Source: a virus. Taken from it: a stretch of DNA of 23,493 nt. The translations under genes were made by a program, and so were the position numbers. Below, piece after piece: positions 5,981 through 22,597 of this stretch (the first letter of the stretch is position 1; each line of letters begins with the position of its first letter). The notes below the pieces were generated by a model, which worked only from the letters and a program-made list of their open reading frames with translations, searched no databases and was not told the DNA's origin. Where the stretch lies: the IMG/VR virus record IMGVR_UViG_3300032242_001622, positions 1 through 23,493 of that record; one strand, written 5' to 3'.

Positions 5981-6006
5981 AAAAAGGGGGGTTTTTAGGC
6001 CCCCCT
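5979..6006 (-). terminator. Intrinsic terminator of the leftward late operon
   Basis: On the minus strand six G (6005-6000), an 8-nt loop, six C (5991-5986) and a run of T form a textbook Rho-independent terminator 32 bp beyond the stop of the last late gene. The same stem on the plus strand has no T-tract after it, so it would stop rightward transcripts only weakly. Confidence 0.9.
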
Positions 6007-6037: not shown

Positions 6038-7744
6038 TTATTCGGTTAACTTGCGCTCGGTTGGTACATTGGCAGTACCAGCACCACCTAGTGCCGATAA
6101 AGCACCAGAGACGTAAGGCTGTGCAGTCTTCATGAATTGTGGGCGCTCAGTGGCCAACACATTAGCCGCCCTCATAGCTGGCTTGTTGTACATCAGTGCA
6201 GACGCCACAATTGGAATACCAGAGCCTAGGTAGTTTACACCACCCTCCATGGTCAAGCCTTTAATCAAGTCTAAGACGGCCGCACGGCCTGCTGTACCAC
6301 TATCACTGACTGACGGTCCAATAACCGACATAGCGGCGTTTGAGACGTCTTTGAGCTTACCTTGACCCTTTGCTGTAGCCTCTTGGCCAGCTTTTCGCTC
6401 AACTGATCTCTCAAGTATCTGAGGTGTATAGATACCACCCTCTGTACCTGCGCGACTTGATGCATCTTGAAGAATTTTGTTTGTTTTGAACACTTCGTTT
6501 GTTTGTTCAAGCAATTTTCTGACGGCTGGATTTTGATGTTTTAATTCTTCGCGCAGTGTCATCAACATATTTTCATATGCTCTACCCAAGTCATCATTGG
6601 TTTTGTACGCCTCATTGGCATATTCACCTAATTTTTTCTCATAAGTACGGTAGGTTTTACCACTAATAATTTGTGCCTTATTAATGGGTTCAATCAAGTC
6701 TTGTCTAACATTTCTCTCAAATCTCTGTGCGTCACTAGGCACTACAGTGGTTTTGAGGTCTTTCATCATGTCTTCAAGACGTCCAGCCACATTTCTGCCA
6801 GCCACATCAAAATTGTCTCGAATTAAATTTGCATTGTGCGATACAGCCTTGTATGCATCAGCTATCTTTTCGGATATGTATTTGTTGGTCTCTTCGCCTG
6901 CTGGGATATTTTCTGGTATTTTAAAACCAAGGGGCTCGACTACTTTGTTGGCCACTGCCTTATTGAAATCGGCATTAACCGTATTCATTGCACCACCAAT
7001 GAACGATCCAGCAATAGGCAAACTGGTCAACTTCTTCTCTAAATTTTTGAGTATTTCAGATCCAGACAATTGCGCTGGAGTGAAGTACTTCATGCCCATG
7101 TCTTTGAGCTTTTGCAACTCAGGAGAAACACTGGGATTCATAATCATCTGGCCAGCTTTACCCAACAAGCCGCCAACTAATGCAGACTCTCCCACTTGCT
7201 CAGCCTTTTGTGCGGCAAAGTCACCAGCGTTTGTCGTAGGAGTGGTTGGAGTCAATAGACCAGCAGTTCCACTAGCAATACCAGCCCGTGCTAAGTCTGA
7301 CTTCCCAATAGCGCCAGGTATTTTTGACGCATACTTAAACGCCGCATACGGTGCAGGGTTAAGCAATTCTCCAGCAGTCGATCCAAGATTGGCGACTACG
7401 GGATACGACATATCAGCCGCCGATTGTTTCATTTTCTGCAACGCCTCGGCTGGCTGGTCATAGCCTGCAAACTGTGCAATGGCCGCCAGTGGACTCAATG
7501 CCCCAGCCACTCCAGATTGGACTAAAGCCGCAGGAATGTCTTTGGCGCGTTCTGGGTTCTGCTGTGACCTTACCCCCGACATCTGCGGATAAACGCCTAC
7601 AGCGGCCCCTCCTTGCGTTGTAGTGGGTGTTGTTTGACCATCTTGACTTCGCATCTGATACTGCGCCAACAAGTCTTGTTGACTGTAGTTATCAGGCACG
7701 TTTTGAATGATCGTGCCATCAGGCATTTTGACGTTCATGACCAT
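6038..7744 (-). CDS. Large virion protein, putative ejection/internal protein
   Basis: A 568-residue protein with TAGGAGAT before the ATG, the last gene of the late operon. The N-terminus 'KMPDGTIIQNVPDNYSQQDL' is a small domain repeatedly seen at the start of podoviral internal virion proteins. Next comes a Gln/Thr/Ala-rich part and an alanine/glycine-rich amphipathic stretch (about residues 70-200, e.g. 'ALVQSGVAGALSPLAAIAQF'). A long charged helical region follows (about 210-430, e.g. 'RTYEKKLGEYANEAYKTNDD'), then another Ala/Gly-rich part (about 470-560). This layout fits proteins packaged in the capsid and ejected with the DNA (P22 gp7/gp16/gp20 or T7 core type). There is no catalytic motif. 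The ejection role is inference from layout and gene position. Confidence 0.6.
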   Translation of the reverse strand: MVMNVKMPDGTIIQNVPDNYSQQDLLAQYQMRSQDGQTTPTTTQGGAAVGVYPQMSGVRSQQNPERAKDIPAALVQSGVAGALSPLAAIAQFAGYDQPAEALQKMKQSAADMSYPVVANLGSTAGELLNPAPYAAFKYASKIPGAIGKSDLARAGIASGTAGLLTPTTPTTNAGDFAAQKAEQVGESALVGGLLGKAGQMIMNPSVSPELQKLKDMGMKYFTPAQLSGSEILKNLEKKLTSLPIAGSFIGGAMNTVNADFNKAVANKVVEPLGFKIPENIPAGEETNKYISEKIADAYKAVSHNANLIRDNFDVAGRNVAGRLEDMMKDLKTTVVPSDAQRFERNVRQDLIEPINKAQIISGKTYRTYEKKLGEYANEAYKTNDDLGRAYENMLMTLREELKHQNPAVRKLLEQTNEVFKTNKILQDASSRAGTEGGIYTPQILERSVERKAGQEATAKGQGKLKDVSNAAMSVIGPSVSDSGTAGRAAVLDLIKGLTMEGGVNYLGSGIPIVASALMYNKPAMRAANVLATERPQFMKTAQPYVSGALSALGGAGTANVPTERKLTE

Positions 7745-7746
7745 CT

Positions 7747-9570
7747 TTATCTCCTAGGTGGCAAGGCATTGAAATCAACCGTTTTACCCTCATCTTTTTT
7801 CTCGCCTTTAGGGATAGCATATTCTTTTGTCTCATTCCAATGGTCAAGAATTTTTTGATTTAATTTATCTTGAGCATCATTGTCTTCACGCAAACGCTTA
7901 ATTGCATCAAGCCTCTGCTGGCGAGTGAGTCTATAGTCGTCCAAATTACCAATAATTTTGCCATGTAAGATTTCGTCATACACAGTACCCTTTTGACTGA
8001 ACTTTGGTATCTCAGTAACAGCCTTGGCTTTTTCACCAATTAAATTATTCATGGCACTGACCATGGGGTCATTTGAATTGGTAAGTCGTTTGACTTGATA
8101 TTGAGCAAACTCTAATGGACCATCGGGTGCATCTTTAGCGTATTGCTCAAGTTTTTCAAGTGTTTGATTGTAATTCTCAGACTTGGTTTGGTCAGTCTTG
8201 AGTGGAATGATCAACTTCTCATAAGTCTTCATCTGTTGAGGAGTCAGTGTCTCTTTCAATCTAGCTAACTTCTCTTCATTCAGAGCTTGTTGAGACATTT
8301 TGAGACCCTCTGCAATTGCAGTTTGACCACGTTGTGCGGCCAACAATTCTTGTTGATGCAATACGTCTTGTGCACGTTTAGATAAACGCTCTTCGGCTTT
8401 ATCAATCTCTTTTTGAGACATACCTTGCTCAAATCGTTTAGATAAATTTAGTGCCTCTTGTTGAATTACACGATTTGGAATTGTTGAATAGTACTTGAAT
8501 GGATTCTCTCGGTCGGTTTGCTCCATCATCATGCCTTGATCAAGCAGTGATTGGCGAAGTTCACCAAGATCTTTAAGCACTTTGACGGCATCAGGAGACT
8601 TCGTAAGAGCATTTTCCCAAGCGGCATTGTCCATGCTGAATTTTGTAACTTTTTCACCGTTTTTATTAGTGACTTCGTTAATCTTAAATACCTTGTTGAC
8701 AAGATCTTTTTGTTTTTGTGACGACTCTTCAGCAATTACGGTTTGCAAGAATTTAGTGTCACCCGTCATTGCCGCATATTGCTTGGCAATTGGAATATTC
8801 AACTTGTTATCAGCACCATATAGTTGCGGTACTAATTTTTGAATTTCTTTCTTGGTCTCGGTGTCAGACATTGACTTGCCTAACTCCATACGCATCATCA
8901 AGTCTTTGCGCTTTTGTTCGTTTTCAGTCTCATTCAACTTATTGATGTTGCCAGCAACGTTACCCAAAGCCTCACCAAATGAGCCAGTTCTTGTGGGTGC
9001 CAAAAATCCTTGAGCAACAGATAACCACTTAGGATCAAGCCCTAAGAATGAGTCTTTTTGTGGGTTCTTGCGACGATCAAGTGAATCAAGAAGTTCTTGC
9101 TGTGCTTGTTCAGCAATGTCCATCCCCTTGTTGCGATAGGGCTGTTCTGTTGGCGCTCTTTGTAGGGCTTGTTCAGGAACTGGCATCTCTGTACCGCCCA
9201 AAGGTGCAGTAGCAGGAGCTAAAGCAGGCGAATTTGCTATGCTGTTGGCCAACGCTGGATTGGTTGGCATTGACAGCGGTGCAGGCATCGATGGCATCCC
9301 CATGGATGGATTCTCGGGCGGCACGGGCGGGGTGAGGGAGACCCCTGGGTGCATGGCAGGGGGAAGACTGCCTGGGGCAGGTGGGTTCATGGCCAACTTG
9401 TTTGCAACCTGAAGTGCTCCAATTGATGGGGGCGTCAAGTTTGTATTTGGACCAAGCGTTGGACCACCCGTCATCTGGTTCAACATTTCATTAGTTGTCA
9501 ATGACAATGGATCACTCATCTGGCCAGACTGGCCATAGATTGACATTGGATCATAGGGTGTAGTTGCCAT
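7747..9570 (-). CDS. Large coiled-coil virion protein, putative ejection protein
   Basis: A 607-residue protein whose stop is 2 nt before the next ATG. Residues 1-145 are low complexity, rich in Pro, Met, Ala and Asn ('NPPAPGSLPPAMHPGVSLTP'). From about 145 the protein becomes charged and helical, with a conserved-looking 'FLGLDPKWLSVAQGFLAPTR ... SFGEALGNVAGNINK' block (residues ~170-215), which is often found in podoviral internal proteins. Long coiled-coil-like segments follow (~375-470, e.g. 'KEIDKAEERLSKRAQDVLHQ'). The end is Lys/Asp-rich. It sits between two other large low-complexity virion proteins, consistent with a set of three to four injected proteins. Function inferred from architecture and neighbours only. 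Confidence 0.55.
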   Translation of the reverse strand: MATTPYDPMSIYGQSGQMSDPLSLTTNEMLNQMTGGPTLGPNTNLTPPSIGALQVANKLAMNPPAPGSLPPAMHPGVSLTPPVPPENPSMGMPSMPAPLSMPTNPALANSIANSPALAPATAPLGGTEMPVPEQALQRAPTEQPYRNKGMDIAEQAQQELLDSLDRRKNPQKDSFLGLDPKWLSVAQGFLAPTRTGSFGEALGNVAGNINKLNETENEQKRKDLMMRMELGKSMSDTETKKEIQKLVPQLYGADNKLNIPIAKQYAAMTGDTKFLQTVIAEESSQKQKDLVNKVFKINEVTNKNGEKVTKFSMDNAAWENALTKSPDAVKVLKDLGELRQSLLDQGMMMEQTDRENPFKYYSTIPNRVIQQEALNLSKRFEQGMSQKEIDKAEERLSKRAQDVLHQQELLAAQRGQTAIAEGLKMSQQALNEEKLARLKETLTPQQMKTYEKLIIPLKTDQTKSENYNQTLEKLEQYAKDAPDGPLEFAQYQVKRLTNSNDPMVSAMNNLIGEKAKAVTEIPKFSQKGTVYDEILHGKIIGNLDDYRLTRQQRLDAIKRLREDNDAQDKLNQKILDHWNETKEYAIPKGEKKDEGKTVDFNALPPRR

Positions 9571-9573
9571 TTT

Positions 9574-10725
9574 TTAGGGTCCTTGCGATTGATCAATGGT
9601 ATCGCCAGTTTCAGGGTTGTAAGCTTGACCACCGCCAATATTGTAATAACCAGCAGGCAATGAATTATTAAATAATTGATCAGATGAAACTATGGGAGTC
9701 TTTGAGGAATTGGTGCCATATGATGGATCAACATAAACTTTACCGTCCGCACCCTGAAGTTGACCATAGCCTGCGGTGGTGGCATTTGGTACTAAAGTGA
9801 GGCCAGTAGTATCGTTCACAGTGGGTATACCAGACTTAGGCGCAGAACTCAACAGATCTGTTAATTTGGTACCCAAACCACTTAATGTGCCAGCAGGCAA
9901 ACTATTTGCCAAAGATCCAACAGCCAGCAATTGAGACAACTGCGAAGGACCATACACGTTTGCAGGTCCAGTGTAGTTCGTCGTTGAAGTTGTTGGAACA
10001 TTGAATCCTTTCATCAAACCAGCTACGCTTGTGGCGTTCTGCAATGGTGCATTGATGATGGCTTGTTTTTGGGCTTGCTCTTGTGCCCCTAAAGCGGCTT
10101 GTGTTGTCAATGCAGAATTGGCGGCTGACTGACCAGTAGAGGCCAAGTTGCCTTGTACGTTGGCAATATTGCCTAAATTTGACTGCTCTTGCAAAGCACT
10201 GGTCACAGCGTTCTTATAAGCTTCCGAGAGGTTAGCGCTCTCTTGTGCGCCTAAAGCCTGCTGGATGCCACCCAAAGCTTGTCCAGTGGCGTTTAATAGC
10301 CTGCTAGAGCCCGTTTGGCCAGTACTTGCACCCAATGCCTGCAATGAGGGCAAAATGCTTTGATTGATGTTCTGTTGGGTTGCCGTCTCTAAGTTTTTAT
10401 TAACGTCGCTGACGTAAGGATTAAAAAACTGATTAATCTGGCTGGCACCTAAAGGGCTGGCGGCTGTATTGGATGTTGCCAATGCATTGATAAGCGGTGT
10501 TTGGTACGTTGTTGCGGCTGTCGGGGCGGCACCAAAAGCACCAATTTGGTTTGAGCTTAAAGGTGCGACAAGTTGATTTTCTGGGGTAGCTAATGATGCG
10601 TTGCCAGCAGAGGCAATGTTTGACAAGTAGTCTTGATAGCTTTGAAACCCAGGGGAAAGGTTGGTGGCGGCAGTCGTCGTTGTATTGACGTTTGCTGGTG
10701 CTGTGCCTGAGAAAATATCTGCCAT
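9574..10725 (-). CDS. Virion structural/internal protein (383 aa)
   Basis: AGGA lies 8 nt before the ATG, which overlaps the upstream stop (TAATG). The central block 'FFNPYVSDVNKNLETATQQN ... LQALGASTGQTGSSRLLNAT' (about residues 110-160) is a recognisable phage signature: 'NPY...V...l......n......aga.Gqtgssr', seen in virion proteins of many podoviruses. It is followed by a long Ala/Gln-rich helix region (~160-235). The C-terminal third is Gly/Thr/Ser-rich with a 'DGKVYVDPSYG' beta motif. No enzyme motif. It probably belongs with the flanking large proteins as an internal or injected component. Family resemblance is moderate; exact role unknown. Confidence 0.6.
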   Translation of the reverse strand: MADIFSGTAPANVNTTTTAATNLSPGFQSYQDYLSNIASAGNASLATPENQLVAPLSSNQIGAFGAAPTAATTYQTPLINALATSNTAASPLGASQINQFFNPYVSDVNKNLETATQQNINQSILPSLQALGASTGQTGSSRLLNATGQALGGIQQALGAQESANLSEAYKNAVTSALQEQSNLGNIANVQGNLASTGQSAANSALTTQAALGAQEQAQKQAIINAPLQNATSVAGLMKGFNVPTTSTTNYTGPANVYGPSQLSQLLAVGSLANSLPAGTLSGLGTKLTDLLSSAPKSGIPTVNDTTGLTLVPNATTAGYGQLQGADGKVYVDPSYGTNSSKTPIVSSDQLFNNSLPAGYYNIGGGQAYNPETGDTIDQSQGP

Positions 10726-13700
10726 TATTTTTTCCTACCTTTCAGGTAATCAAGTGGTGATTTTAATGCAGGTGGGGGTAGGTCATCAACTTTAGTGGAT
10801 CTTGCCCGTGCACGTATTTCTTCCATCATTTTGTACAACTTGTCAGTTCCAGCCTTTGTGGAACCGTTTCCTAGGGCTGAGACCACATCAGCAGGGAAAA
10901 CGAACTCACCGTCGGCCAACATAGCAGGGATGTCGTCGCTTTGGCCGTCACCTTCGCCTGCTACGTGCGCTCCATGCCTAAAGTCGTGCCGTCCGTCTTT
11001 GCGTGGGATAGGTCCTAAAACGCTCAAAGGAGCCACGTAACCACCTTTTTTGAAGGCTTGGACTGGCTCTTCAGTCTCTTTTTTCTGGCCTAAAACTGAC
11101 TCAACACTGGCTGGTTTAATGCCGTAATTGTAGTAGCTAGACTGCTCAGTTGGTGTTTGTGTATTCATGGTTGGTTCAGGAGCTTTACGCCCCTCCGCAA
11201 GTTGCATCAGTTTTTCCAAGGGATTCTTGAAAGAACTTTGTGTCATCATCGATTTTAAAAATTGCGCCTTTGCCCCTGGATATCCTGGGCCTGAAATTGG
11301 TTGAGGGGTTTGGTCTTGTGTGCCTGCGGTAGTTGTAGGCAACTTAGTAGGAGTTGGTGTCGTTGTTTTTACTGTCGTAGTCGTTGGTGTAGGGGTCGGT
11401 GTAGGAGTTGGTGTAACAACATCAGGTTCTTTTTTTCCAATAACTGTAACGGGCGGTAAAACTACGTCTGGCTCTGTTTTTTTTCCTATAACAGTAACTG
11501 GTGGTAAAACTACGTCTGGTTCTTTTTTGCCAACCACTGTTACAGGCGGTAACACCACATCAGGTTCTTTTTTTCCCACCACAGTTACAGGTGGCAAAAT
11601 ATTATCTGGTGTATTGTCGGTTAACTTTTGTCCAGTTACTGTGACGGGATTTAGTTCTGTAGGTTTTTGTCCAACAACCGTCACTGGAGGCAAAATGTTA
11701 TCTGGCGTTGTGGCTGTTGGCTTTTGTCCAACTACAGTGACTGGAGCCAAAGAAGTTGATGCAGTAGTGCTTGCAGGCAACGTAACAGTATTATCAGGAA
11801 CAACATTTCCTGTCTGTTTTTGTCCAGTCACAGTAACTGGTGCCAAAGTTGTGTTTGCTCCAGTTGCGCTTGATGTTGTACCAGTAGGAACAACAGTATT
11901 ATCTGGCGTTAATACACCAGTGTCCTTCTGTCCAGTTACCGTTACAGGTTCAGGCGTGAGAGGGACAGAGTTATCGCCACCTTGCACCTTGACGCCAGCG
12001 CCAGAAAAATCTAAAGAAATAGAACCTATATATTCGCCGTTGACATACGTCGCTCTCTTACCAGTCTGGGGATTGTCTACGGTGTATATGTCTTCATTGT
12101 CATCTGTTTTTCCACCGTACTGAACATTTGGATTCTTGTCATCAATTAATTGTTGTAATTGAGAGGGAGACAAAGGTCCTGAAGGCGTAATTCCAAGTTG
12201 TACTGGACCAGCATCAGTCATTGTTCCAGTTGATGTACTGGCCAAACTTGTTCCGCCCGTGGTGCCAGAACTGGTTCCAAGTTGATCAATGATGGCTTGG
12301 GTGGCGGTGTCGATCCCTGGCAAGGACGAAGGCACAACATCTGCCGATGCAACATTTGTTGACGACTTTGCCTGCTGTGCTTTTGCGGCATTTGTACCAG
12401 CAGAAATTGCGGCATTTATCAATGTTTGTGTTGGATTGGCACCCGCTAATACGCCACCAATTATTTTGTTGACAGCGGCTTGGCTACTTGCGTTGAGGCT
12501 GGAATACCCTGGGATGTCTTTGGCGATAGAAGGTATTGCGGCGCTTACTCCACCAGCAGTCAGTAGCTGAAGTGGATCTGCTTTGCCTTGTGATGTAATT
12601 TCACCAGCAGTCAATGCGCTTGATGCACCTTTTGCAACATCACCAATAGTGCTTGCAAGAGTATCAGACATAGTTGTTGGCAGTGCATTCTCTACAAAAT
12701 TACCAACTTTACTGCCAACATACGGTGCGGCCAAAACTGCGGCCTCACTCAATGCGGCATTTTTTGCAACTGTTGCCAAGTCTTGGCCTGAGGCTAAACC
12801 TAGGCCAGCATTGATGGCAGGTATGAATGCACCATAACCACTTAGACCAGCAACAATGTCAGCAATAGGAATGACGTTTTGTGCAATGTTTTTTAGAAAA
12901 CCGCCAGCTTGGCCTGGTTGGTAGATGTTTTGTTTGGACGCATCATCAATTGGCTTGACATTACCATTTGCATCAATTCCAACAATCATGTGATAGATAC
13001 CACCAGCATCATTGATCTGTACGTCGTATGCATTACCACCTAAATTTTCAACACTTCTCACTGGAAGTTGAGTTCCATCAGCAGTAGTCAAATATGAATT
13101 GTTGATTGTTTGACCACGTGATTGGAATGTTGAAGGTACATATTTAGCTTGGCCAAGTTGAATGGTATTGTAAACAGAATTTACATCTTGATTTGAGTCA
13201 TTCAAAGTAGGCGGTGCCAACGCCGTTGAGTGTGGCGTTGGTGTCGTTGCTGTAGTTGTATCTGTTGTTGTGGCTGGTGTTGTTGTACTAGCCGATGGAG
13301 TCATCAACGCCGCAGTAACTTGGTCACCACTGACGCCAAAGTAAGGCGCTATTGCTTTTGCTTGGTCAGGTGTTAAGTTGTTCTGTGCAACAAAAGCCTT
13401 GATGTCGTCATTAGTAAAAGATACTGGACCTTTGCCTTGTAATTTAAGTACTGCATCAACCAAGGATGTGTCATAAGCCATTTGGCCTGTATCACCCATG
13501 TGAAAACCTTGTCCAACAGCGGTGTTGTCAACCAAGTTCTTTTGGTTTAACAGACCAGCCATTGAGTCAACAACAGTCACGTTTTTATTGTTGGCGGCAA
13601 CCGTGTTATACAGAGGGTCAAGCTTTAAATTTGTATTGCCAGTAACATCAGCAATTGAACTGACTTGTGGCGCTCCAGACAATACAACATTAACGCCTAA

Positions 13701-14366
13701 TGAACCAAGTTTTTTTGCAATAGTATCTAGATTTTTTGTGACGACATCTGCTGATACACCAGTCAACAAGTCATTGCCGCCTGAGTCTAAAACCACCGTA
13801 GTTCCAGGGGCAAAACTCCCCCCGCCCGCCAAAAAGTCATTCAACTGCTGTAAATTTTGCGTACTTGTTGTACCCCCAATTGCAACATTTGTAACTGGTG
13901 TATTTCCAAGTTGTTTTTGAATGTACGGCGTATTTAGTGCGTTATTTGCCAGCCAACTATCGCCAGCCAATACTACCCCTGACAACTGACCTGCTGGTGT
14001 AGTTGTCGCTGGTGTAGTGTTTGTTGCTTGAGTCAATGCTCCAGTAGTAGGAGTTGTGGCCGTATTATTGACTTGGCTCAATGCACCAGTGTTTACATTT
14101 GTCTGAGTTCCATCCGCCAAAGTTAAATTTGGATTTGGGTTTGGTAATGCGGGTCGCGGTGGTTCCGCAACAACTTCGGTGTTAATCACTGGAGCAGGTG
14201 CAGGCGTAGGCAAAGTCAAACCAGCGCCAGCTACATCAAAAGATGGGAAGTACTGCGCCACATCCGCAGATGTCACACCCATGCTGTTGACTAGATTTTG
14301 AAGGCCAGTATTTCCAGACGAATACGCCGCCGCAAGTTGATTTGCTTGTTCTTGGCTGATAGTCAT
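10725..14366 (-). CDS. 1213-residue virion protein with SGNH hydrolase domain and repeat region
   Basis: A very large multi-part late protein. Residues 1-50: short helical domain. 51-128: Pro/Thr/Asn-rich linker. 129-310: SGNH/GDSL-type hydrolase fold with 'VVLAGDSWL' (Ser137), 'NVAIGGTTS' (Gly164), 'LDSGGNDLL' (Asn198) and 'GFHMGDTGQMAYD' (His289). The Asp usually three residues before the His is Gln286, so the triad looks incomplete. About 490-660: Ala/Gly-rich amphipathic helices. 807-985: nine copies of a 'P-V-T-V-x-G-(Q/K)-K' repeat. 986-1020: Pro/Thr tract. The C-terminus 'GEGDGQSDDIPAMLADGEFV ... SALGNGSTKAGTDKLYKMM' is the conserved end motif of many phage virion and tape-measure-like proteins. 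A likely role is an ejected or tail-associated protein whose esterase-like domain trims surface polysaccharide or peptidoglycan substituents. That role is inference. Confidence 0.75.
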   Translation of the reverse strand: MTISQEQANQLAAAYSSGNTGLQNLVNSMGVTSADVAQYFPSFDVAGAGLTLPTPAPAPVINTEVVAEPPRPALPNPNPNLTLADGTQTNVNTGALSQVNNTATTPTTGALTQATNTTPATTTPAGQLSGVVLAGDSWLANNALNTPYIQKQLGNTPVTNVAIGGTTSTQNLQQLNDFLAGGGSFAPGTTVVLDSGGNDLLTGVSADVVTKNLDTIAKKLGSLGVNVVLSGAPQVSSIADVTGNTNLKLDPLYNTVAANNKNVTVVDSMAGLLNQKNLVDNTAVGQGFHMGDTGQMAYDTSLVDAVLKLQGKGPVSFTNDDIKAFVAQNNLTPDQAKAIAPYFGVSGDQVTAALMTPSASTTTPATTTDTTTATTPTPHSTALAPPTLNDSNQDVNSVYNTIQLGQAKYVPSTFQSRGQTINNSYLTTADGTQLPVRSVENLGGNAYDVQINDAGGIYHMIVGIDANGNVKPIDDASKQNIYQPGQAGGFLKNIAQNVIPIADIVAGLSGYGAFIPAINAGLGLASGQDLATVAKNAALSEAAVLAAPYVGSKVGNFVENALPTTMSDTLASTIGDVAKGASSALTAGEITSQGKADPLQLLTAGGVSAAIPSIAKDIPGYSSLNASSQAAVNKIIGGVLAGANPTQTLINAAISAGTNAAKAQQAKSSTNVASADVVPSSLPGIDTATQAIIDQLGTSSGTTGGTSLASTSTGTMTDAGPVQLGITPSGPLSPSQLQQLIDDKNPNVQYGGKTDDNEDIYTVDNPQTGKRATYVNGEYIGSISLDFSGAGVKVQGGDNSVPLTPEPVTVTGQKDTGVLTPDNTVVPTGTTSSATGANTTLAPVTVTGQKQTGNVVPDNTVTLPASTTASTSLAPVTVVGQKPTATTPDNILPPVTVVGQKPTELNPVTVTGQKLTDNTPDNILPPVTVVGKKEPDVVLPPVTVVGKKEPDVVLPPVTVIGKKTEPDVVLPPVTVIGKKEPDVVTPTPTPTPTPTTTTVKTTTPTPTKLPTTTAGTQDQTPQPISGPGYPGAKAQFLKSMMTQSSFKNPLEKLMQLAEGRKAPEPTMNTQTPTEQSSYYNYGIKPASVESVLGQKKETEEPVQAFKKGGYVAPLSVLGPIPRKDGRHDFRHGAHVAGEGDGQSDDIPAMLADGEFVFPADVVSALGNGSTKAGTDKLYKMMEEIRARARSTKVDDLPPPALKSPLDYLKGRKK
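11412..11948 (-). repeat. Nine-copy degenerate coding repeat (PVTVxG[QK]K)
   Basis: Within the 1213-residue gene, units of about 14-40 codons start with P-V-T-V-(T/V/I)-G-(Q/K)-K. The four most downstream units ('LPPVTVVGKKEPDVV' type) are nearly identical and only 14-15 codons long. The upstream units are longer and more diverged ('PDNT/PDNI' spacers). Synonymous changes between units show the array is not a fresh slippage product. The array is a likely site for copy-number variation. Confidence 0.8.
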
Positions 14367-14629
14367 GACGACACCGCTTGGAAGTTATTCATTAAATTAA
14401 GGGCCCACTCATCCCAGTTTGCATAGGCATATGGGTCAGGAACTTGAGAATTGGTGAACAAGTCAATGGACTTAACACCAACAGCCCAGCCTTGCCACGT
14501 TGTCGTGGGGCCAGGGATTTCTAACTGATTCGCCGCAAAACCCTCACACATCAAACTAGCCCAAGACTCAAACGTATGATGCCTCGGGTCATAAATGAGC
14601 GGTAAACTGTTCGAGTTATTAATAGCCAC
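14363..14629 (-). CDS. Small conserved phage protein after the gp10-like gene (88 aa)
   Basis: I start this gene at GTG 14627-14629, which has GGAGA 6-10 nt upstream and overlaps the end of the gp10-like gene by only 11 nt. The frame is open to a TTG at 14701, but that would lie deep inside the upstream gene. Its end overlaps the next ATG by 4 nt. The protein reads 'LPLIYDPRHHTFESWASLMC ... NQLEIPGPTTTWQGWAVGVK ... DPYAYANWDEWALNLM', rich in Trp and conserved-looking turns. Small proteins of this kind are found next to stabilisation/nozzle genes in podoviruses. A structural role in the tail or as an assembly partner is likely by position. No known enzymatic motif. Confidence 0.75.
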   Translation of the reverse strand: MAINNSNSLPLIYDPRHHTFESWASLMCEGFAANQLEIPGPTTTWQGWAVGVKSIDLFTNSQVPDPYAYANWDEWALNLMNNFQAVSS

Positions 14630-16859
14630 GAACGTCTCCAAAGTCTCCGCCAAGTAGCAATCGACCCAATTGGTAGTTGCCACCCGTGGTGTTGGAAACA
14701 AAACGCAACCTCATCTCACGACGCTGTTCTTTTAAGTCAATTTTATTGGTTGTAGATGTGAATGTGTAAGGCCCAGTCTGTACATCCGTGGATTGAGCAA
14801 ACGGTCGTCCAGTTATGTACATATCCATGGGGCCCGACAAGATAAAGTCAGGCTCCAAACGCTCTAGTCTGAACCACTGATTCTCACCAACCAATGCAGG
14901 CTGTGAAGGGCCACCCGTCACCCAGCCCAAGTTATTGGTTTCAAAGTAACTCAAAATGGCAACTTGGTTACCGCCTTGAACCGCATCTGTACCAATCTCA
15001 TGTTGGAACAATGAGACAAAATTAATAGTGGTATTCACTGTTAGGGTAAATCCTGAGCCAGTAGTACCAATAAACCCAGCGCCTGAACCAGTGGCGGCTG
15101 ACAAAACGTCGCCATTCACGTAGCCGTATCCATGTGAAGTGATATAGACCGTAGTCATGGCTCCACCCGTCACAAACACAATTGCTTGTGCGCCCGTTCC
15201 CGAGCCTCCAGTGAGGTTTACGGCCACATAGGTACCGTTGGTATAGGAAGACCCGCCTGTCGTGATTGTGGTGGCATTTACGCCGCCTGTGAGGTTAATT
15301 TGCCAATCGGCATTCACTGGATAGTGGAAAACCTGAGAGAAGTAACCAGCCGACCTCTGTGCGCCCACGGCTTGGCCAGCATCGTACCAAGTAGCCTCAC
15401 GCACGTTATAGATGATGGCGTCATTGCACTCGGTTGCATCTTGGCCATTCGGAAAAAACCACCAGATTTCACCAAAACGTGGCACTTTTGTTGCGTACAC
15501 TTTTTGACGCTGTGCATAGTTCAAGTTATCAAAAAAGTAGTTTTGATTCATGTCATTGGGAATTTCTTTGACAACACCGTTGTACAGTAAGAAACGATCA
15601 ACTCCACACCAATAGTAGATGCCGTCGTACTCAATGACTGACTGAGACGACAAAATAGAAGATTGAGACGTAATGACGTCATATCGCCAGTAAAACGATA
15701 CGGCTGTAGTGCCTGTAGTAACCGTGGTCGGCGTATAAGACACGCGAATCACAGAGTCTAGAGACCAAAATAGGCCAGACGGTGCATTTGATCCACCGCG
15801 AACTGGTAAACCTTGGACAATCTTGCCTGTTGCCACATTTGTAGCGTTGGCTGTTGCCGAGACCCAATCGTTAATGTTTCCAGCGCCTGAGTTCTGAATC
15901 AATCCATTGTTGCCAAAAATAAATACATATGGGTGCAAGACAACAATCCCGCCAGAGACGGCCAAGTTGTTGTCAAAGGTAACCAGTGCGGTTGCGTTGG
16001 TTGCCGTTGCAGGCTTACTCAAAGTAACCGTCGTACCAACAACAGATACCACCGTTGTACCAGCCGCGATGCCTGTACCTGAGACTGATTGGCCTGCACC
16101 AATAATGAATTCATTAGTCAATGGAGCAACAATAGTGGCTGTTGCGCTGGTGTTTGTAATACTTAAATTTTGCTGAAAAACACCAATTTTGCTCAATGTG
16201 AAGTTTGTGAACGTCAGTGAGGCAGTAGCGTTTGTGGCCGTTGCGTTTGCACTCAAAGTCACAGTAAGACCAGATGCGGAGACTACGTAAGTGTTAGTCG
16301 GAATACCTGTACCAGTGACGACTAGCCCAGCCTCAATAAAACTAGAAAAAGACGGCAATGTAATTGTTGGACTGCCAGATGATATTGAACCCGTTAAAAC
16401 AAAATACCCGTTGATTGGACCAGCCAATGGATAGGTGTTTGTTGTGCTGTCAATTATGTTCAGATTCTGCCCAGGGTGACTCACCAATAAATTATTCCCA
16501 GAGCCAGTGCTATCAAAAAAGGAATCGAATTGCCAAAGATTATTAGCATTAGCACTGAAGTTATACATAAGAAAATCACTGATGCCAGTACCAATACCGA
16601 CACTATTGATGGGTAGCACTTGAACACCATCAGAATATCCCGAAAAAATTTGAGTAAACCCGTTTTGAGGATTGACATAAATTCCCCTTGATGGGCCCGC
16701 CAAAAATGCTGTGATTTCCTTGTAACCTAAGATTTTTCTAGGCCGTGCACGTTGAAAACGCACCCACTGGCCATCACGATAGCAGATTGTGTCGGTGAGT
16801 GTGCCGTCGCGTTGGATGCCTGGCTTGGTGGCCAGTGCGAATGTTTTTGGCATTGACAT
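14619..16859 (-). CDS. P22 gp10-like tail hub/nozzle (DNA stabilisation) protein with inserted domains
   Basis: The N-terminus 'GIQRDGTLTDTICYRDGQWV ... RARPRKILGYKE' is the signature of P22 gp10-type packaged-DNA stabilisation proteins (T7 gp12-like nozzle), which close the portal channel and form the tail hub. Further family motifs are 'GLFWSLDSVIRVSY', 'YDGIYYWCGVDRFLLYNG', 'VPRFGEIWWFFPNG' and the C-terminal 'NQWFRLERLEPDF ... DLKEQRREMRLRF'. At 746 residues it is longer than P22 gp10 (472). The extra length is three Thr/Gly/Ala-rich beta domains: two tandem copies (about 156-217 and 232-296, both ending 'T-x-T-L-S-x-x-A-T-A-T-N-A-T-A') and a third at about 524-608 ('GGSSYTNGTYVAVNLTGGSG'). 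These look like surface decoration modules. Start ATG overlaps the upstream stop (TAATG). Confidence 0.85.
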   Translation of the reverse strand: MSMPKTFALATKPGIQRDGTLTDTICYRDGQWVRFQRARPRKILGYKEITAFLAGPSRGIYVNPQNGFTQIFSGYSDGVQVLPINSVGIGTGISDFLMYNFSANANNLWQFDSFFDSTGSGNNLLVSHPGQNLNIIDSTTNTYPLAGPINGYFVLTGSISSGSPTITLPSFSSFIEAGLVVTGTGIPTNTYVVSASGLTVTLSANATATNATASLTFTNFTLSKIGVFQQNLSITNTSATATIVAPLTNEFIIGAGQSVSGTGIAAGTTVVSVVGTTVTLSKPATATNATALVTFDNNLAVSGGIVVLHPYVFIFGNNGLIQNSGAGNINDWVSATANATNVATGKIVQGLPVRGGSNAPSGLFWSLDSVIRVSYTPTTVTTGTTAVSFYWRYDVITSQSSILSSQSVIEYDGIYYWCGVDRFLLYNGVVKEIPNDMNQNYFFDNLNYAQRQKVYATKVPRFGEIWWFFPNGQDATECNDAIIYNVREATWYDAGQAVGAQRSAGYFSQVFHYPVNADWQINLTGGVNATTITTGGSSYTNGTYVAVNLTGGSGTGAQAIVFVTGGAMTTVYITSHGYGYVNGDVLSAATGSGAGFIGTTGSGFTLTVNTTINFVSLFQHEIGTDAVQGGNQVAILSYFETNNLGWVTGGPSQPALVGENQWFRLERLEPDFILSGPMDMYITGRPFAQSTDVQTGPYTFTSTTNKIDLKEQRREMRLRFVSNTTGGNYQLGRLLLGGDFGDVRGY

Positions 16860-18136
16860 TAGAAGGTCCCGCCTGAAATGCCGCCAGTAAACGTGCCATT
16901 GACTGCTGATACGTTACCAGTGACTGTTATTCCACTCGCATTGACATCCAAAACTTGTGATCCAAGAATTGAAATGTCAAATTTACCAGATCCAGATCTA
17001 TATATACCCGTGTTATTTTCATTGGCAAAATTAATGGCTGGTGTTGATACCGTACCATCAATCACGCTCAAAGACGTCGCACCAACTTGTACAGTGTTGG
17101 CATTAAAGAAATTAGTACCATCACAGATCACCGATACTTGTGAGCCAGCAGGAACCGTGTAAGTGTTGCCGTACCCAGTGGTTATCCGTAATGAGTGGCC
17201 GTTGTTGGCCGCTTGATTACTGATTATGTAGAGGTTCACTACGGGTGGATAGACAATTGTCACGTTAGCCGTCATTGAACCAACGTACTCTTGAATAATA
17301 CTTTGAGCTTGGGCTGTCGTCAGCGTATACGTGCCAGCAGTGACGGGAAAAGTGAGGGCTGTAAAAACAAATACGTTACTAACACCATAGCCAACAGACA
17401 TAAATTGAGTGCCATCACACACAATAAATGAGGACTCATTAGGGTTGTAGGTTTTAGCTGTAGCCGTGTCAAAGGTATCAGACCCAGAGCAATTAATAGT
17501 TAAGGTGCCAGAGCCATTGTTCTTGAATAAACAAAACCAGTTGTTGCCTAGCGTGGACGCCAAAGGCAAGTTCCAGTTTCCTGCGCCACCAGACCACACT
17601 TTGACTTGTGCGCGATCGCTGGTCAAAAAGGTGTACCCATCGGTAGCTGATTGGGCTGGGTGAGTTTGATTTAATGTGTTTGAAGTTGCCTGCAAACCAT
17701 AGCCAGCAAGCGTTGTAGCATCAGGTGCAGACGTACCCACACCCATGGCAATATTGCCCCATGTGCCCGCTACATTGCTGTTTGCTGTCAAGTAGATGTA
17801 CTTTGTCTGGCCAGCAGTCACAGTGATGATGGTTCCACCACTATTGTCGTAGACAGTGAAGGTGCTCGAACCTAGGTTCCGAATGAATGCATCAGTCCCC
17901 AATGACGCTTGGTTTGCTGGAGGCATATATAGCCCTAGACCAGTCGTTGATGGCGTCACATCCATGATTCTCGCGGCGTATGTACCCGTCGTATTTGACG
18001 ATACTGGCCACAACAAATATGTGTTTGTTGTTAACGATAAATTAAGATAGGAAACGTCTGTTGGTTGTACAACATCCCCAGTAAAAGGGGATGTGAAACT
18101 GCCTGCCGAACCTGTGAATGGTGTGCTGTATGTCAT
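16859..18136 (-). CDS. Tail fibre/spike-like protein (425 aa)
   Basis: A Thr/Ser/Gly/Asn-rich, beta-dominated protein between the adaptor and gp10-like genes. The N-terminal 180 residues contain repeated beta motifs ('DAFIRNLGSSTFTVYDNSGG', 'TKYIYLTANSNVAGTWGNIA'), and a similar unit follows ('WFCLFKNNGSGTLTINCSGS'). The C-terminal segment 'PAINFANENNTGIYRSGSGK ... VLDVNASGITVTGNVSA' is a conserved motif of trimeric tail-fibre and spike shafts ('p.i.FaNe.nTGiyr.g...f.....G...l.vn.sG'). It likely forms a trimeric appendage that attaches near the adaptor ring. It overlaps the adaptor gene by 4 nt and ends one base into the gp10-like start. No enzymatic or chaperone domain is seen. Confidence 0.75.
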   Translation of the reverse strand: MTYSTPFTGSAGSFTSPFTGDVVQPTDVSYLNLSLTTNTYLLWPVSSNTTGTYAARIMDVTPSTTGLGLYMPPANQASLGTDAFIRNLGSSTFTVYDNSGGTIITVTAGQTKYIYLTANSNVAGTWGNIAMGVGTSAPDATTLAGYGLQATSNTLNQTHPAQSATDGYTFLTSDRAQVKVWSGGAGNWNLPLASTLGNNWFCLFKNNGSGTLTINCSGSDTFDTATAKTYNPNESSFIVCDGTQFMSVGYGVSNVFVFTALTFPVTAGTYTLTTAQAQSIIQEYVGSMTANVTIVYPPVVNLYIISNQAANNGHSLRITTGYGNTYTVPAGSQVSVICDGTNFFNANTVQVGATSLSVIDGTVSTPAINFANENNTGIYRSGSGKFDISILGSQVLDVNASGITVTGNVSAVNGTFTGGISGGTF

Positions 18137-18765
18137 GAATCCACCGCAATGGCTTGACGGTCAGCAACACGCAATTTGTCCTCTGTCGTCAGTGTAGATA
18201 CGATCAAGTCGTACTGTTGTTGCCACATAGCTACCCTAGGGTCGTTCTTTAGGTAGGGCATTGCTTGGAGCAAAGATCCGAAGAGAATTGCTTGTGGAGC
18301 GTATTGTGTGTACCAATTTGTCTGGTTTGTTGCGTCTAACGGCTGAACCCTTTGGTAGTAAAGTACCTCAAAAGAGTACGCTTGGTCAGGCGTGGGTGAG
18401 ACAAACCAATGCGAATAGTCGTAGTCACAATAATAAAGTGGTGCGCCAGTACCTGTAGTTGCATTCGGGGTATATTCTTTTAGGTATTCGTATTTTCTGA
18501 GTAATACGGGCTGTGAGGCGCCGTTTACCGTGATGTTAAAGGACACCGTCTTGTGCCAGTCTGTTGGCTTGGCAATGATCGGTGTGTTGGCTGTCATGGC
18601 GCTTTCGGCCACGTACAAGTTTCCCAAAAACTTCATTTGGCTGGCCAAAACCTGCTCGGCCAACATGATAAAAGTGGGAATATAGGATATTGTTTGGGCG
18701 TCTGTACGCTCAAGATAGACTTGAATGTTATCTACTAGACTGTTGTAAGTCATCACTTGAGCCAT
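18133..18765 (-). CDS. Head-tail adaptor protein (P22 gp4/T7 gp11-like)
   Basis: A 210-residue protein with the strongest ribosome-binding site of the region (AGGAGG, 6 nt spacing). The N-terminus 'TYNSLVDNIQVYLERTDAQT ... IPTFIMLAEQVLA' is typical of phage adaptor/tail tubular A-type proteins. Mid-protein motifs are 'PIIAKPTDWHKTVSFNI', 'LLRKYEYLKEYTPNATTGTG' and 'FEVLYYQRVQPL', and the end is 'FGSLLQAMPYLKNDPRVAMW'. These proteins form a dodecameric ring below the portal and dock the nozzle. Finding it with the gp10-like hub gives the standard podovirus tail. It is the first gene of this sub-block, preceded by a 53-nt gap that could hold a promoter. Confidence 0.85.
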   Translation of the reverse strand: MAQVMTYNSLVDNIQVYLERTDAQTISYIPTFIMLAEQVLASQMKFLGNLYVAESAMTANTPIIAKPTDWHKTVSFNITVNGASQPVLLRKYEYLKEYTPNATTGTGAPLYYCDYDYSHWFVSPTPDQAYSFEVLYYQRVQPLDATNQTNWYTQYAPQAILFGSLLQAMPYLKNDPRVAMWQQQYDLIVSTLTTEDKLRVADRQAIAVDS

Positions 18766-18818: not shown

Positions 18819-19247
18819 TTAAGCGTAGATTCGAGTACCACTTTTATCAATAATTAATGCTTGTCTACGGGGCTTGTCATTTGGGTTTGAAACAATAGAC
18901 ACGTGAGTCCACCTGTCGAACTCTCTTATACACTGGTCATAGGGCAAATCAGAGGCTATGATGGCTTTAACTACCTCATCAGGGGTCATGCTTGGTATAC
19001 GCAAGTCAGCCGCACATCCTAGCCTATGCTGAGAGGTAGGAGCAGAACCCACCGCCTGATTTACTTGCGCTGATCGAAAGGCCGAGTTAACCATGACAGG
19101 CTTGCCACCCAACAAGTCTTTAACTTGCTCCAAGAAGATTGCAAGACGGACAAGGTTTGTTCTTTCAGTTTCGTTAGGTACATTGTCAAACTCCCTATGT
19201 TCAGTAATTGTTAACTCTTCAAGAGTAAAGTGTTTAGTTAGTATCAT
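18819..19247 (-). CDS. Peptidase M15-type endolysin (L,D/D,D-carboxypeptidase fold)
   Basis: A 142-residue protein with the full metal-binding set of M15 peptidases: 'VNSAFRSAQVNQAVGSAPTS' with conserved Arg58, then 'SQHRLGCAADLRI' giving His74 and Asp81, and 'FDRWTHVSI' giving His115. The length and the N-terminal start 'HFTLEELTITEHREFDNVP' match the phage/GTA M15 single-domain endolysins that cut peptide cross-links of peptidoglycan. There is no signal peptide, so release depends on the holin encoded just upstream, whose stop overlaps this ATG by 4 nt (19244-19247). Catalytic residues are intact. Confidence 0.9.
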   Translation of the reverse strand: MILTKHFTLEELTITEHREFDNVPNETERTNLVRLAIFLEQVKDLLGGKPVMVNSAFRSAQVNQAVGSAPTSQHRLGCAADLRIPSMTPDEVVKAIIASDLPYDQCIREFDRWTHVSIVSNPNDKPRRQALIIDKSGTRIYA

Positions 19248-20484: not shown

Positions 20485-22173
20485 TCAACTCCACTTGATA
20501 ATTACGATACCTGAACCACCGTTGGCTGAATAAGCGGCTGTACTAGAATTTCCACCACCACCACCACCACCTCCAGTGCCAGCAACTCCTGAAGTCATGT
20601 TGTTGGAAGGATCACCATTGCCACCACCTCCACCACCACCTGTTCCACCATTGTTGTATGGCCCACCAGAATATCCACCACCTCCACCGCCACCAGCATA
20701 GTAAACAGTAGAGCCACTTAAACTAGATGATAATCCAGCGCCGCCTGCTCCTGGGCTTCCAGAACTTGCGGCATTACCGCCAGCGGCATTTGCACCGCCT
20801 CCACCACCTCCAGCACCGCCAGTATTACCTATGCCACCATTGTTTCCGCCAGTAGTTCCTGATCCGCCTGCTGTATAACTTGTTACATATCCGCCACCGC
20901 CACCAGAGCCTCCATTAGCACCAACACCATTAGTTGATGTGCTTGTTCCACCGCCACCACCACCTGTTGCAGTTACGCCATTGAATAATGAATTACCACC
21001 ATTAGAACCTTTTTGTTGTGCGTTACTTCCAACCCCAAAACCACCTCCACCTACAGTGACAGCATATTGTGTTCCAGCAGTAACTGATAAACCTGTGGCT
21101 GTTAAAAATGCACCAGCACCACCCCCACCGCCTCCACCACCACCGCCACCTCCACCTCCAACTATTAGATATTGAACTTGAGATGATCCTGTTGGGGCAG
21201 TCCACACACCTGAAGATAAGAACACCGCTGTGTTATCTGGTAAAACTTTAGTAGGAGCTTGAGATACTAAAGTGCCAGAAGTAGTGAATGTATGAATAAC
21301 AAAACCATTAGCGGCAGTAACAGTACCGCCTGTAAACCATTGTTGATTACCTTGATAACGAACAATAACTATTCCGCTACCACCTGTAGCTCCATTAGGA
21401 CTAACTCCACCATTAGTTCCTCCGCCTCCACCACCACCTGTATTGGCGGTTCCAGCGACAGCTACACCAAGCTGATTTCCGCCTGTTCCACCACCACCTT
21501 GACCGCCATTACCAGCATTAGCGGCATTACTATAACTATTACTTCCAAGTCCTCCACCTCCGCCTCCGCCATAGAGAACTACAGCGCCAGAAATTGAAGA
21601 TGCAATCCCAGCACCACCAGTGCCATTTACTTGACCTGATAATCCAACTAATCCTGCTCCGCCACCACCGCCACCTTGCCATCCAGTAGATGCACTACCT
21701 GTGCTATATCCTTTACCGCCAGCATTTCCTTGGCCTGACGTTCCCGATCCACCAATACCACCTACACCAACATTGCCATTGCTAGACCCACTACCACCAC
21801 CAGAACCACCTACTGCTCCTGTGCCGTCTGTTCCAGATCCACCACCGCCACCACCTAATGCAACAAAATTTCCTGTTGTAGCGCTAGAACCTGTTGCTAA
21901 TAAAACAGAATTGCCGCCAGTAGTACCTGGGGTAGAACTTGATGATCCTGGGCCGCCACTTCCAATAGTTACATAGCACGTTATGCCTTGAGTAATAGAT
22001 GTTTGTCCAGAAAGAACGCCACCAGCACCCCCACCACCACCTTGGTTGTATCCACCACCGCCTCCAGCGGCAACAACAAAATACTCAATTGTTTGCGGAA
22101 AACCTACCCACTGCCCATTCTGCACTGCTTGGGCAACTTGACTGAGAGTCCACATTCCGCTTAATTGAGCCAT
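20485..22173 (-). CDS. Glycine-rich tail adhesin with two polyglycine modules (562 aa)
   Basis: Start set at ATG 22171-22173, 4 nt after the upstream stop and giving 'MAQLSGMWTLSQVAQAVQNG'. The frame is open 25 residues further, but that part is Gln/Leu-rich shadow of the upstream gene. Two tandem modules each begin with a 'V-x-Y-(F/L)-(V/I)-V-x-GGGGG' strand (about 29 and 333) and close with 'GGSGIVI(V/I)(R/K)' (about 264-272 and the C-terminus). Between them lies a short beta linker ('FVIHTFTTSGTLVS'). Gly runs at regular spacing predict stacked polyglycine-II helices, as in phage S16 gp38-type receptor-binding adhesins. Likely role: host receptor recognition at the tail tip. No chaperone or peptidase domain is visible. 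Confidence 0.75.
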   Translation of the reverse strand: MAQLSGMWTLSQVAQAVQNGQWVGFPQTIEYFVVAAGGGGGYNQGGGGGAGGVLSGQTSITQGITCYVTIGSGGPGSSSSTPGTTGGNSVLLATGSSATTGNFVALGGGGGGSGTDGTGAVGGSGGGSGSSNGNVGVGGIGGSGTSGQGNAGGKGYSTGSASTGWQGGGGGGAGLVGLSGQVNGTGGAGIASSISGAVVLYGGGGGGGLGSNSYSNAANAGNGGQGGGGTGGNQLGVAVAGTANTGGGGGGGTNGGVSPNGATGGSGIVIVRYQGNQQWFTGGTVTAANGFVIHTFTTSGTLVSQAPTKVLPDNTAVFLSSGVWTAPTGSSQVQYLIVGGGGGGGGGGGGGGAGAFLTATGLSVTAGTQYAVTVGGGGFGVGSNAQQKGSNGGNSLFNGVTATGGGGGGTSTSTNGVGANGGSGGGGGYVTSYTAGGSGTTGGNNGGIGNTGGAGGGGGGANAAGGNAASSGSPGAGGAGLSSSLSGSTVYYAGGGGGGGYSGGPYNNGGTGGGGGGGNGDPSNNMTSGVAGTGGGGGGGGNSSTAAYSANGGSGIVIIKWS

Positions 22174-22177
22174 GATC

Positions 22178-22597
22178 TTATACCGATGGAGTTGAAGGAG
22201 TAGGTGTTGGAGTCGGTGTTGAATTTGGAGGAGGCGTTGGAGTCTCAACCACAGGGGCTACAAACTCAACCCAAGTCTTTGTATCTTCGTGCCATTCATA
22301 GCGCTTGCCATCTGTAGGCATAGGTGTAGGAGGTTCCCACAAATATGTATCTGCGTTCTTTGCCCATGATGCATATGGCTGTGGAGGCGCAAAGCCTGTA
22401 CCGTCCCATGTGTAGCCAATACCTGCATAATTTTTATGCAAGGGTGTACCGCCTTGGGAGTGCTTGCCACCTTGAGTATTGTAAGAAGTCTGAACCCACT
22501 CAGATGGGTCACCCCAATTACCAAGGGCTAATGTTTCAGCTTCAATAACGATGACGTTATCTACAATTCCATTTGTGATATGTGCAAAATGACTCAT
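22178..22597 (-). CDS. Fibre-associated protein, cyanophage-like type (139 aa)
   Basis: GGAGA precedes the ATG by 5 nt. The sequence 'MSHFAHITNGIVDNVIVIEA ... WVQTSYNTQGG ... LHKNYAGIGYTWDGTGF ... PPQPYASWAKNADTYLWEPP ... MPTDGKRYEWHEDTKTW' matches a small virion/fibre-associated family well known from cyanophages and other aquatic phages. The family body ends near residue 112; a Pro/Thr tail ('TPTPPPNSTPTPTPTPSTPS') is appended here. It lies between two glycine-rich adhesin genes, so it may cap, connect or help assemble them. The family is recognised with good confidence, but its molecular role is not established. Confidence 0.8.
   Translation of the reverse strand: MSHFAHITNGIVDNVIVIEAETLALGNWGDPSEWVQTSYNTQGGKHSQGGTPLHKNYAGIGYTWDGTGFAPPQPYASWAKNADTYLWEPPTPMPTDGKRYEWHEDTKTWVEFVAPVVETPTPPPNSTPTPTPTPSTPSV

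Follow-up and report, generated by a model that had tools for sequence, protein, structure and literature searches.

SGNH esterases carry four conserved sequence blocks, with the nucleophilic Ser in block I, a Gly in block II, an Asn in block III and the catalytic His in block V, and an Asp three residues before this His (position H-3) is usual, not universal, among these enzymes. The phage-encoded SGNH esterases from the literature compared here are tail-spike, tail-fibre or tail-lysin domains. The tail spikes and fibres, including G7C gp63.1, Possum gp66 and Q19, are thought, according to excerpts of the publications on them, to be active at the start of infection. The tail protein Tal (gp59) of Staphylococcus aureus phage 80alpha likewise holds a C-terminal SGNH/GDSL domain within the entry machinery, for which a passage of PMC7048315 suggests cell-wall degradation, and a staphylococcal tail lysin with an SGNH domain also appears in part of PMC12323379. 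This paper describes an SGNH domain in a putative ejection protein of 1213 amino acids (aa) from an uncultivated phage, encoded on the minus strand (14366..10725) of positions 1 to 23,493 of IMG/VR virus record IMGVR_UViG_3300032242_001622; this whole stretch of 23,493 nucleotides is referred to as the window. An earlier reading made from the letters alone (the sequence-only reading) had listed the open reading frame (ORF) at 10725-14366 without a strand; the ORF is genuine and its coding strand is the minus strand.

The gene lies in a block after the tail hub gene, as do the genes for the P22 ejection proteins gp7, gp16 and gp20. P22 ejection proteins build a trans-periplasmic conduit, as described in part of PMC8402733, and the virion RNA polymerase of N4-like phages provides, in a passage of PMC12633501, a precedent for a large enzyme as ejected cargo, although the enzyme type differs in the window protein. 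G7C-type spikes and fibres are external receptor-binding proteins and 80alpha gp59 is a siphovirus baseplate protein rather than an ejection protein, whereas the window gene belongs to an ejection block and differs from the G7C-type proteins in C-terminus and gene position. Polyvalent proteins are large, multi-domain injected proteins (Iyer et al. 2017, PMC5512222), and one related locus (L111) likewise combines the ADP-ribosyltransferase domain ART-PolyVal with SGNH; the window protein, in contrast, has one enzymatic domain recognised by Pfam. The terms SGNH, GDSL, esterase and lipase have 0 occurrences in the main text of PMC5512222, and a literature search limited to open-licence full texts found no description of SGNH in an ejection protein.

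We give a probability of roughly one half to the proposal that an SGNH serine ester hydrolase forms a cargo cassette close to the N-terminus of a short-tailed phage ejection protein and acts at the envelope conduit.

The SGNH domain and its two active-site variants

The domain was recognised by Pfam PF13472 Lipase_GDSL_2 (residues 146-295, score 42.1 bits, cutoff 32.9, E 1.7e-10) and Lipase_GDSL (residues 152-295, score 32.9 bits, cutoff 23.6, E 9.2e-08), and the Pfam E-value improved to 1.7e-11 when the domain was searched alone. Among PDB sequences, phmmer returned the carboxylesterases 7c29 (2.7e-06) and 7c23 (2.8e-06), and a profile of the 68-member family described below matched CrmE10 (7c23) at 1.5e-10. 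Structure prediction had been proposed by the sequence-only reading as a check, and the AlphaFold2 model of residues 118-322, built with 68 sequences, has the three-layer alpha/beta/alpha, flavodoxin-like SGNH fold (predicted local distance difference test score, pLDDT, 90.4; predicted template modelling score 0.88). A model lacking this fold was to have refuted the sequence-only reading, which therefore stood this check. The top Foldseek match in the PDB was TesA 4jgg (2.1e-07), which VIA-align superposed with Z 19.4 and a root mean square deviation of 2.4 over 167 residues, followed by 9otv (Z 18.7), EstA 3hp4 (Z 18.0) and Escherichia coli TesA 1u8u (Z 17.7). In the predicted model, S137 (model residue 20) stands just behind the first core strand (14-18) and H289 (model residue 172) just ahead of the last helix (175-192), which we take to be the places of the catalytic residues in the SGNH fold.

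The predicted whole-domain fold and the Ser-Gly-Asn-His blocks are thus shared with TesA/thioesterase I-lysophospholipase L1 and other bacterial SGNH esterases (4jgg, 9otv, 3hp4, 1u8u; CrmE10 7c23, AlinE4 7c2a), from which the window domain differs by its lack of an acid at H-3, by its location inside a 1213-aa phage protein and by its low identity (18-26% to 4jgg, 9otv, 3hp4 and 1u8u). Since the structural neighbours span thioesterase/lysophospholipases, other esterases and acetylesterases, deacetylation is only one option for the reaction. The SGNH-fold domain, for which esterase activity is likely, and its embedding in a large protein of virion type are both supported. When the protein was shuffled 2000 times, a loose spacing pattern (S..G..GxND..H), drawn up once the domain had been seen, turned up in one shuffle; chance occurrence of the four motifs was rejected on the Pfam scores above cutoff, the predicted fold and selection.

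The SGNH domain is under strong purifying selection. Between the window and its near relative at locus L001, the ratio of nonsynonymous to synonymous substitution rates (dN/dS) was 0.037 for the domain, compared with 0.42 and 0.18 for the linkers at residues 53-124 and 356-395 and with 0.094, 0.019 and 0.094 for residues 1-52, 313-355 and 396-626, a pattern that argues against a decaying domain. In a set of 302 domain pairs, which are not independent of each other, dN/dS had a median of 0.109 and a maximum of 0.233.

Family members were collected from IMG/VR, where a scan with the window domain alone returned only L001 and a query of five SGNH domains (window, L001, L013, L027, L038) returned 127 related loci, 80 of which were used. 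From a scan with the hub protein, 80 of 489 loci were used. Six-frame ORFs of 166 loci gave 84 domain matches, or 68 distinct domains once duplicates and the truncated L139 had been removed; at Pfam E-values up to 0.01 these matched PF00657 (66/68), PF13472 (35/68) and NonGDSL (31/68). In BFVD a single close relative was present, A0A6J5LR05, a protein of 1293 aa with E 7.8e-19 at 38% identity, and the next match reached 4.1e-07. No match to the window domain or the L097 domain was found in 50,697 phage records, against which the L155 protein gave one match and the L111 protein three, all outside the SGNH domain.

The predicted active-site residues, numbered exactly as in the sequence-only reading where it named them (S137, G164, N198, Q286, H289), are:

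13956..13958, minus strand: S137, predicted nucleophile, 68/68 family members
13875..13877, minus strand: G164, block II, Gly in 60/68
13773..13775, minus strand: N198, block III, Asn in 31/68, replaced by Val or Leu in 37/68
13527..13529, minus strand: D280, candidate displaced acid, invariant in subfamily A (31/31)
13509..13511, minus strand: Q286, at H-3, the position of the usual Asp in SGNH enzymes
13500..13502, minus strand: H289, predicted catalytic His, 68/68

All four block residues are present in the window domain, and S137, W138, D199 and H289 are invariant in the 68 distinct domains. The family splits cleanly into subfamily A (31/68), to which the window belongs, and subfamily B (37/68). 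Subfamily A has Asn at position 198 throughout (31/31), an acid-free H-3 (Ser 27, Thr 2, Gln 2) and, in 20/31, a retained Asp before the nucleophile; an Asp aligned with D280 is found in every member at H-5, shifted to H-9 in the window and L001 by a 4-residue insertion. Subfamily B has Val (34) or Leu (3) at position 198, Ala before the Ser (37/37) and Asp at H-3 (37/37), and the predicted model of one of its members (L155; pLDDT 91.8) has much the same structural neighbours (4jgg, Z 18.4). The two subfamilies form two clades in the SGNH tree, a quick tree that carried long-branch warnings, so that the active-site exchange does not represent 31 or 37 independent events.

The Gln at H-3 that had been noticed from the letters is correctly described for the window; apart from the window only L001 has it, and the remaining members of subfamily A have Ser or Thr. 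The accompanying suggestion of altered activity or another acid gains a candidate in the invariant upstream D280, the alternative being a Ser-His dyad; the acid of the window subfamily may have been displaced to D280, or the enzyme may use the dyad. Dyad SGNH enzymes that lack an adjacent acid are described in part of PMC12313940 (Streptomyces rimosus lipase, Streptomyces scabies esterase), so that Asp at H-3 is not obligatory, and an excerpt of PMC11372007 reports an expressed GDSL-like enzyme whose model misses the usual Asn and His.

The protein and its ejection block

The 1213-aa gene and its parts, from N- to C-terminus, are as follows:

10725..14366, minus strand: putative ejection protein gene with SGNH domain, 1213 aa
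14211..14366, minus strand: N-terminal segment before the first linker, residues 1-52, resembling by eye short segments of relatives
13995..14210, minus strand: T/P/A-rich linker with TGAL(S/T)Q motifs, residues 53-124
13431..13994, minus strand: SGNH/GDSL hydrolase domain, residues 125-312, from Pfam, PDB sequence, AlphaFold2, fold searches and dN/dS
13302..13430, minus strand: conserved segment behind the SGNH domain, residues 313-355
11415..11745, minus strand: repeats encoding PPVTVVGKK/EPDVVL-type segments, from TRF
10728..10982, minus strand: conserved C-terminal region with GEFVFPADVVSALG, residues 1129-1213, common to SGNH-less orthologs

The low complexity described by the sequence-only reading is directly visible in the T/P/A-rich composition, and the conserved C-terminal motif that it reported was recovered as GE[FY][VI]x within the last 120 residues in 36 of 45 complete ORFs at the hub-adjacent position (the hub slot), the window excluded. 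A looser TGAL-type linker motif was present in 36 of 75 hub-slot ORFs, and a counterpart of residues 313-355 was seen by eye in the SGNH-less relative L007. The C-terminal part resembles phage tape-measure or unnamed proteins. Pfam and further domain scans recognised no enzymatic domain besides SGNH in the window protein. A 267-aa plus-strand ORF (11320-12123), antisense to the repeats, was rejected as a gene.

The gene order is SU10-type adaptor, 425-aa gene, 746-aa hub, small gene, 1213-aa gene, and genes of 383, 607 and 568 aa, with the following neighbours:

18133..18765, minus strand: SU10-type adaptor, PF24175 8.8e-23
16859..18136, minus strand: 425-aa gene; its positional counterpart in MW202545 is annotated as tail protein
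14619..16859, minus strand: 746-aa hub protein, phrog_3287; nearest relative annotated as phage stabilization protein
14363-14701, minus strand: small gene separating hub and ejection protein; near-identical in L001, with a 237-bp gene there in Caulobacter phage RW
9574..10725, minus strand: 383-aa gene (ej383), DNA ejection protein, phrog_4287, 3.3e-06
7747..9570, minus strand: 607-aa gene (ej607) of the same block; several related loci have homologs in this order
6038..7744, minus strand: 568-aa gene, last in the block; a similar stretch lies within the SGNH ORF in L116 and L117

The 1213-aa gene is thus positioned after an adaptor and a hub and beside ejection genes, its ATG overlapping the stop of the small gene (ATGA), and the ejection-protein setting postulated from the letters is borne out by the adaptor, the tail gene, the hub and the phrog_4287 DNA ejection protein in one block. 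The annotation phage stabilization protein is presumably the name of P22 gp10. The nearest annotated relative of the hub is MW202545, with further relatives in Caulobacter phages RW, GB2A, RLK and KcrB; in phage RW the hub is followed by the 237-bp gene and a 1743-bp gene holding a match to the window C-terminus. A hub homolog lies upstream of 33 of 69 distinct SGNH ORFs (window included), with gaps of 173-768 bases between hub and SGNH ORF in the 32 fetched loci, and ej383 and ej607 homologs lie downstream in, for example, L088, L093, L097, L098, L100, L101, L106, L123, L140 and L141. In PHROGs, the comparison through which homology to P22 gp7, gp16 and gp20 was tested, the 1213-aa protein hit none of the ejection families and gave only a weak match to the tape measure family phrog_3547 (0.0095).

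A terminator-like hairpin (AGGGGGGCC...CCCCCCT, then a T run) is located just behind the last ejection-block gene (5985-6006, minus strand); promoter and terminator scans of the window gave no excess over shuffled sequences (18 against a mean of 20.3, and 15 against 14.4). On the other side of the block, an M15-type endolysin (18819-19247, minus strand; PF08291 6.6e-18) precedes the adaptor, and L001-L003 have there a different, mutually similar ORF (GH19 PF00182 1.4e-05, tested in L002 only), so that the lysis genes seem to be swapped too. Upstream of the tail block, minus-strand genes at 20485-22248 and at 22608-23462 encode glycine-rich, fibre-like proteins.

Gain, loss and exchange of the domain among related phages

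The domain behaves as a cassette: hubs that are about 90-98% identical are accompanied by subfamily A, subfamily B or no SGNH domain. L038 and L028 have 98.0% identical hubs and ejection proteins that are 73.8% identical over 1150 alignment columns, with SGNH in L038 only. L098 (A) and L138 (B) share 94.7% hub identity, whereas their SGNH domains are 45.7% identical, and the corresponding values for L108 (A) and L126 (B) are 89.7% and 43.0%. L007, the hub-tree sister of the SGNH-bearing L088, lacks the domain and has a C-terminus that is 86% identical to that of L088 over 196 residues. Among 29 SGNH-less proteins with the same C-terminus, Pfam at E-values up to 0.001 recognised only DUF4214, in 1/29, and thus no alternative enzymatic cargo.

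On a hub tree of 76 rows (33 with and 43 without SGNH), a quick tree with long-branch warnings like the SGNH tree, the SGNH label needs at least 9 changes, 7 of which are forced by starred branches. Of the 43 hub-slot ORFs labelled as lacking the domain, 16 end at the contig end, and the labels of L031, L054, L060 and L087 rest on a non-orthologous ORF of 370-374 aa; L129 was set to SGNH by hand before the tree because its domain lies on a preceding short ORF, the stop of which is overlapped by the next long ORF. The sampling is biased because many loci were fetched by their SGNH domain; among contigs from the hub scan, SGNH was present in 4 of 46 evaluable cases (L001, L013, L027, L038).

Proposed mode of action and alternatives

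For the activity, ejection, site of action and substrate of the protein we infer the following steps. The 1213-aa protein would be packed inside the virion, exit via the portal and tail with or ahead of the DNA, and join or accompany a conduit across the envelope. Beside this conduit the SGNH domain, with S137 as nucleophile and H289 as base, would cleave an ester, which may be an acetyl or acyl group on peptidoglycan or another envelope glycan, or a lysophospholipid, and this cleavage would ease penetration of particular hosts. In the window subfamily the His would be held by the displaced D280 or, in a Ser-His dyad, by a main-chain carbonyl near position 286.

Several observations weigh against this proposal. 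The hub-slot carriers L122, L124 and L132 lack an ej383 homolog although their sequence continues, and in two loci the SGNH domain in the ejection slot is encoded by a short separate ORF (L129:6575-7558, 327 aa; L132:4670-5827, 385 aa). MW202545, the nearest annotated relative, is titled Siphoviridae, and a tape-measure annotation is given to proteins with a shared C-terminus in Arthrobacter phages, in GB2A and in DSL-LC04. N198 is absent from 37/68 domains and the H-3 acid from 31/68, so that either subfamily could be impaired. No relative was confirmed by two pattern-based scans of 84,980 genomes of bacteria and archaea, in which 122 and 71 pattern stretches came up; this null result depends on the short patterns used. 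Finally, the ART-PolyVal domain beside SGNH in L111 fits a cytoplasmic role better.

This last point belongs to a wider set of carriers outside the ejection slot. Five SGNH ORFs lie behind a portal gene (L107, L133, L153, L155, L166), the SGNH gene of L128 follows the major head protein, and a further eight (L099, L109, L111, L112, L113, L116, L117, L118; 1055-2799 aa, two ORFs being cut by the contig end) were grouped as terminase-portal neighbours. Of these, L111 and L113 have a confirmed terminase and L113 and L117 a confirmed portal; the other grouping was made by similarity and the SGNH tree. L111 and L113 follow the terminase gene, and L113 precedes the portal gene. One protein of L111 (3389-8467) has ART-PolyVal (7.7e-21) upstream of SGNH, and proteins of L113 (5678-10447) and L118 (3143-8200) combine ASCH (0.00016 and 0.00038) with SGNH, along with GP88 matches below the family cutoff.

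Such carriers permit a tentative and rather unlikely generalisation, in which a phage-confined SGNH subfamily would be a mobile effector cassette with two alternative active sites, placed in P22-type ejection proteins, in portal- or terminase-side proteins and beside an ADP-ribosyltransferase, and serving as an injected ester hydrolase inside the host and not in adsorption. The more specific cytoplasmic effector, in which SGNH would be one of the weapons on an injected protein of polyvalent type and would cleave a thioester, an acyl-protein or a small-molecule ester, with host defence or metabolism as possible targets, is unlikely as well: it draws on the eight terminase-portal-group ORFs, on the ART-PolyVal, ASCH and sub-cutoff GP88 companions, to which ART-PolyVal in 1/34 further SGNH proteins can be added, and on the TesA-type thioesterases as closest folds, whereas the window protein has no second recognised enzymatic domain and ART-PolyVal and ASCH were each found in only 2 of the 68 SGNH proteins scanned.

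An SGNH-fold module that has lost catalysis and is retained for binding or packing would suit the missing H-3 acid of subfamily A and the missing block-III Asn of subfamily B; the invariant Ser and His (68/68), the strong purifying selection and the active enzymes without adjacent acid described in part of PMC12313940 make it quite improbable. A surface polysaccharide deacetylase for adsorption, comparable to the SGNH tail spikes of G7C-type phages, is very improbable: tail spikes and fibres are familiar carriers of SGNH domains, according to excerpts of PMC9569702 and PMC7693777, and proteins named as tail fibre or tail spike are among the BFVD matches, but these have 14-16% identity, compared with 38% for A0A6J5LR05, and the gene is located between hub and ejection genes and encodes a C-terminus common to tape-measure or unnamed proteins. 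Least likely is a tape measure protein of a longer-tailed phage whose SGNH domain helps the tail tip through the wall, since the annotations of the C-terminus sharers, the phrog_3547 match and the Siphoviridae title of the relative are opposed by the flanking SU10-type adaptor and DNA ejection protein and by complete SGNH ORFs of 327-2799 aa, a poor fit to a length ruler.

If a conserved esterase cassette in probably ejected proteins is gained, lost and swapped among close phages, some ester barrier or target specific to the host would be expected at entry, and the SGNH cassette is a small, expressible domain for finding that barrier or target.

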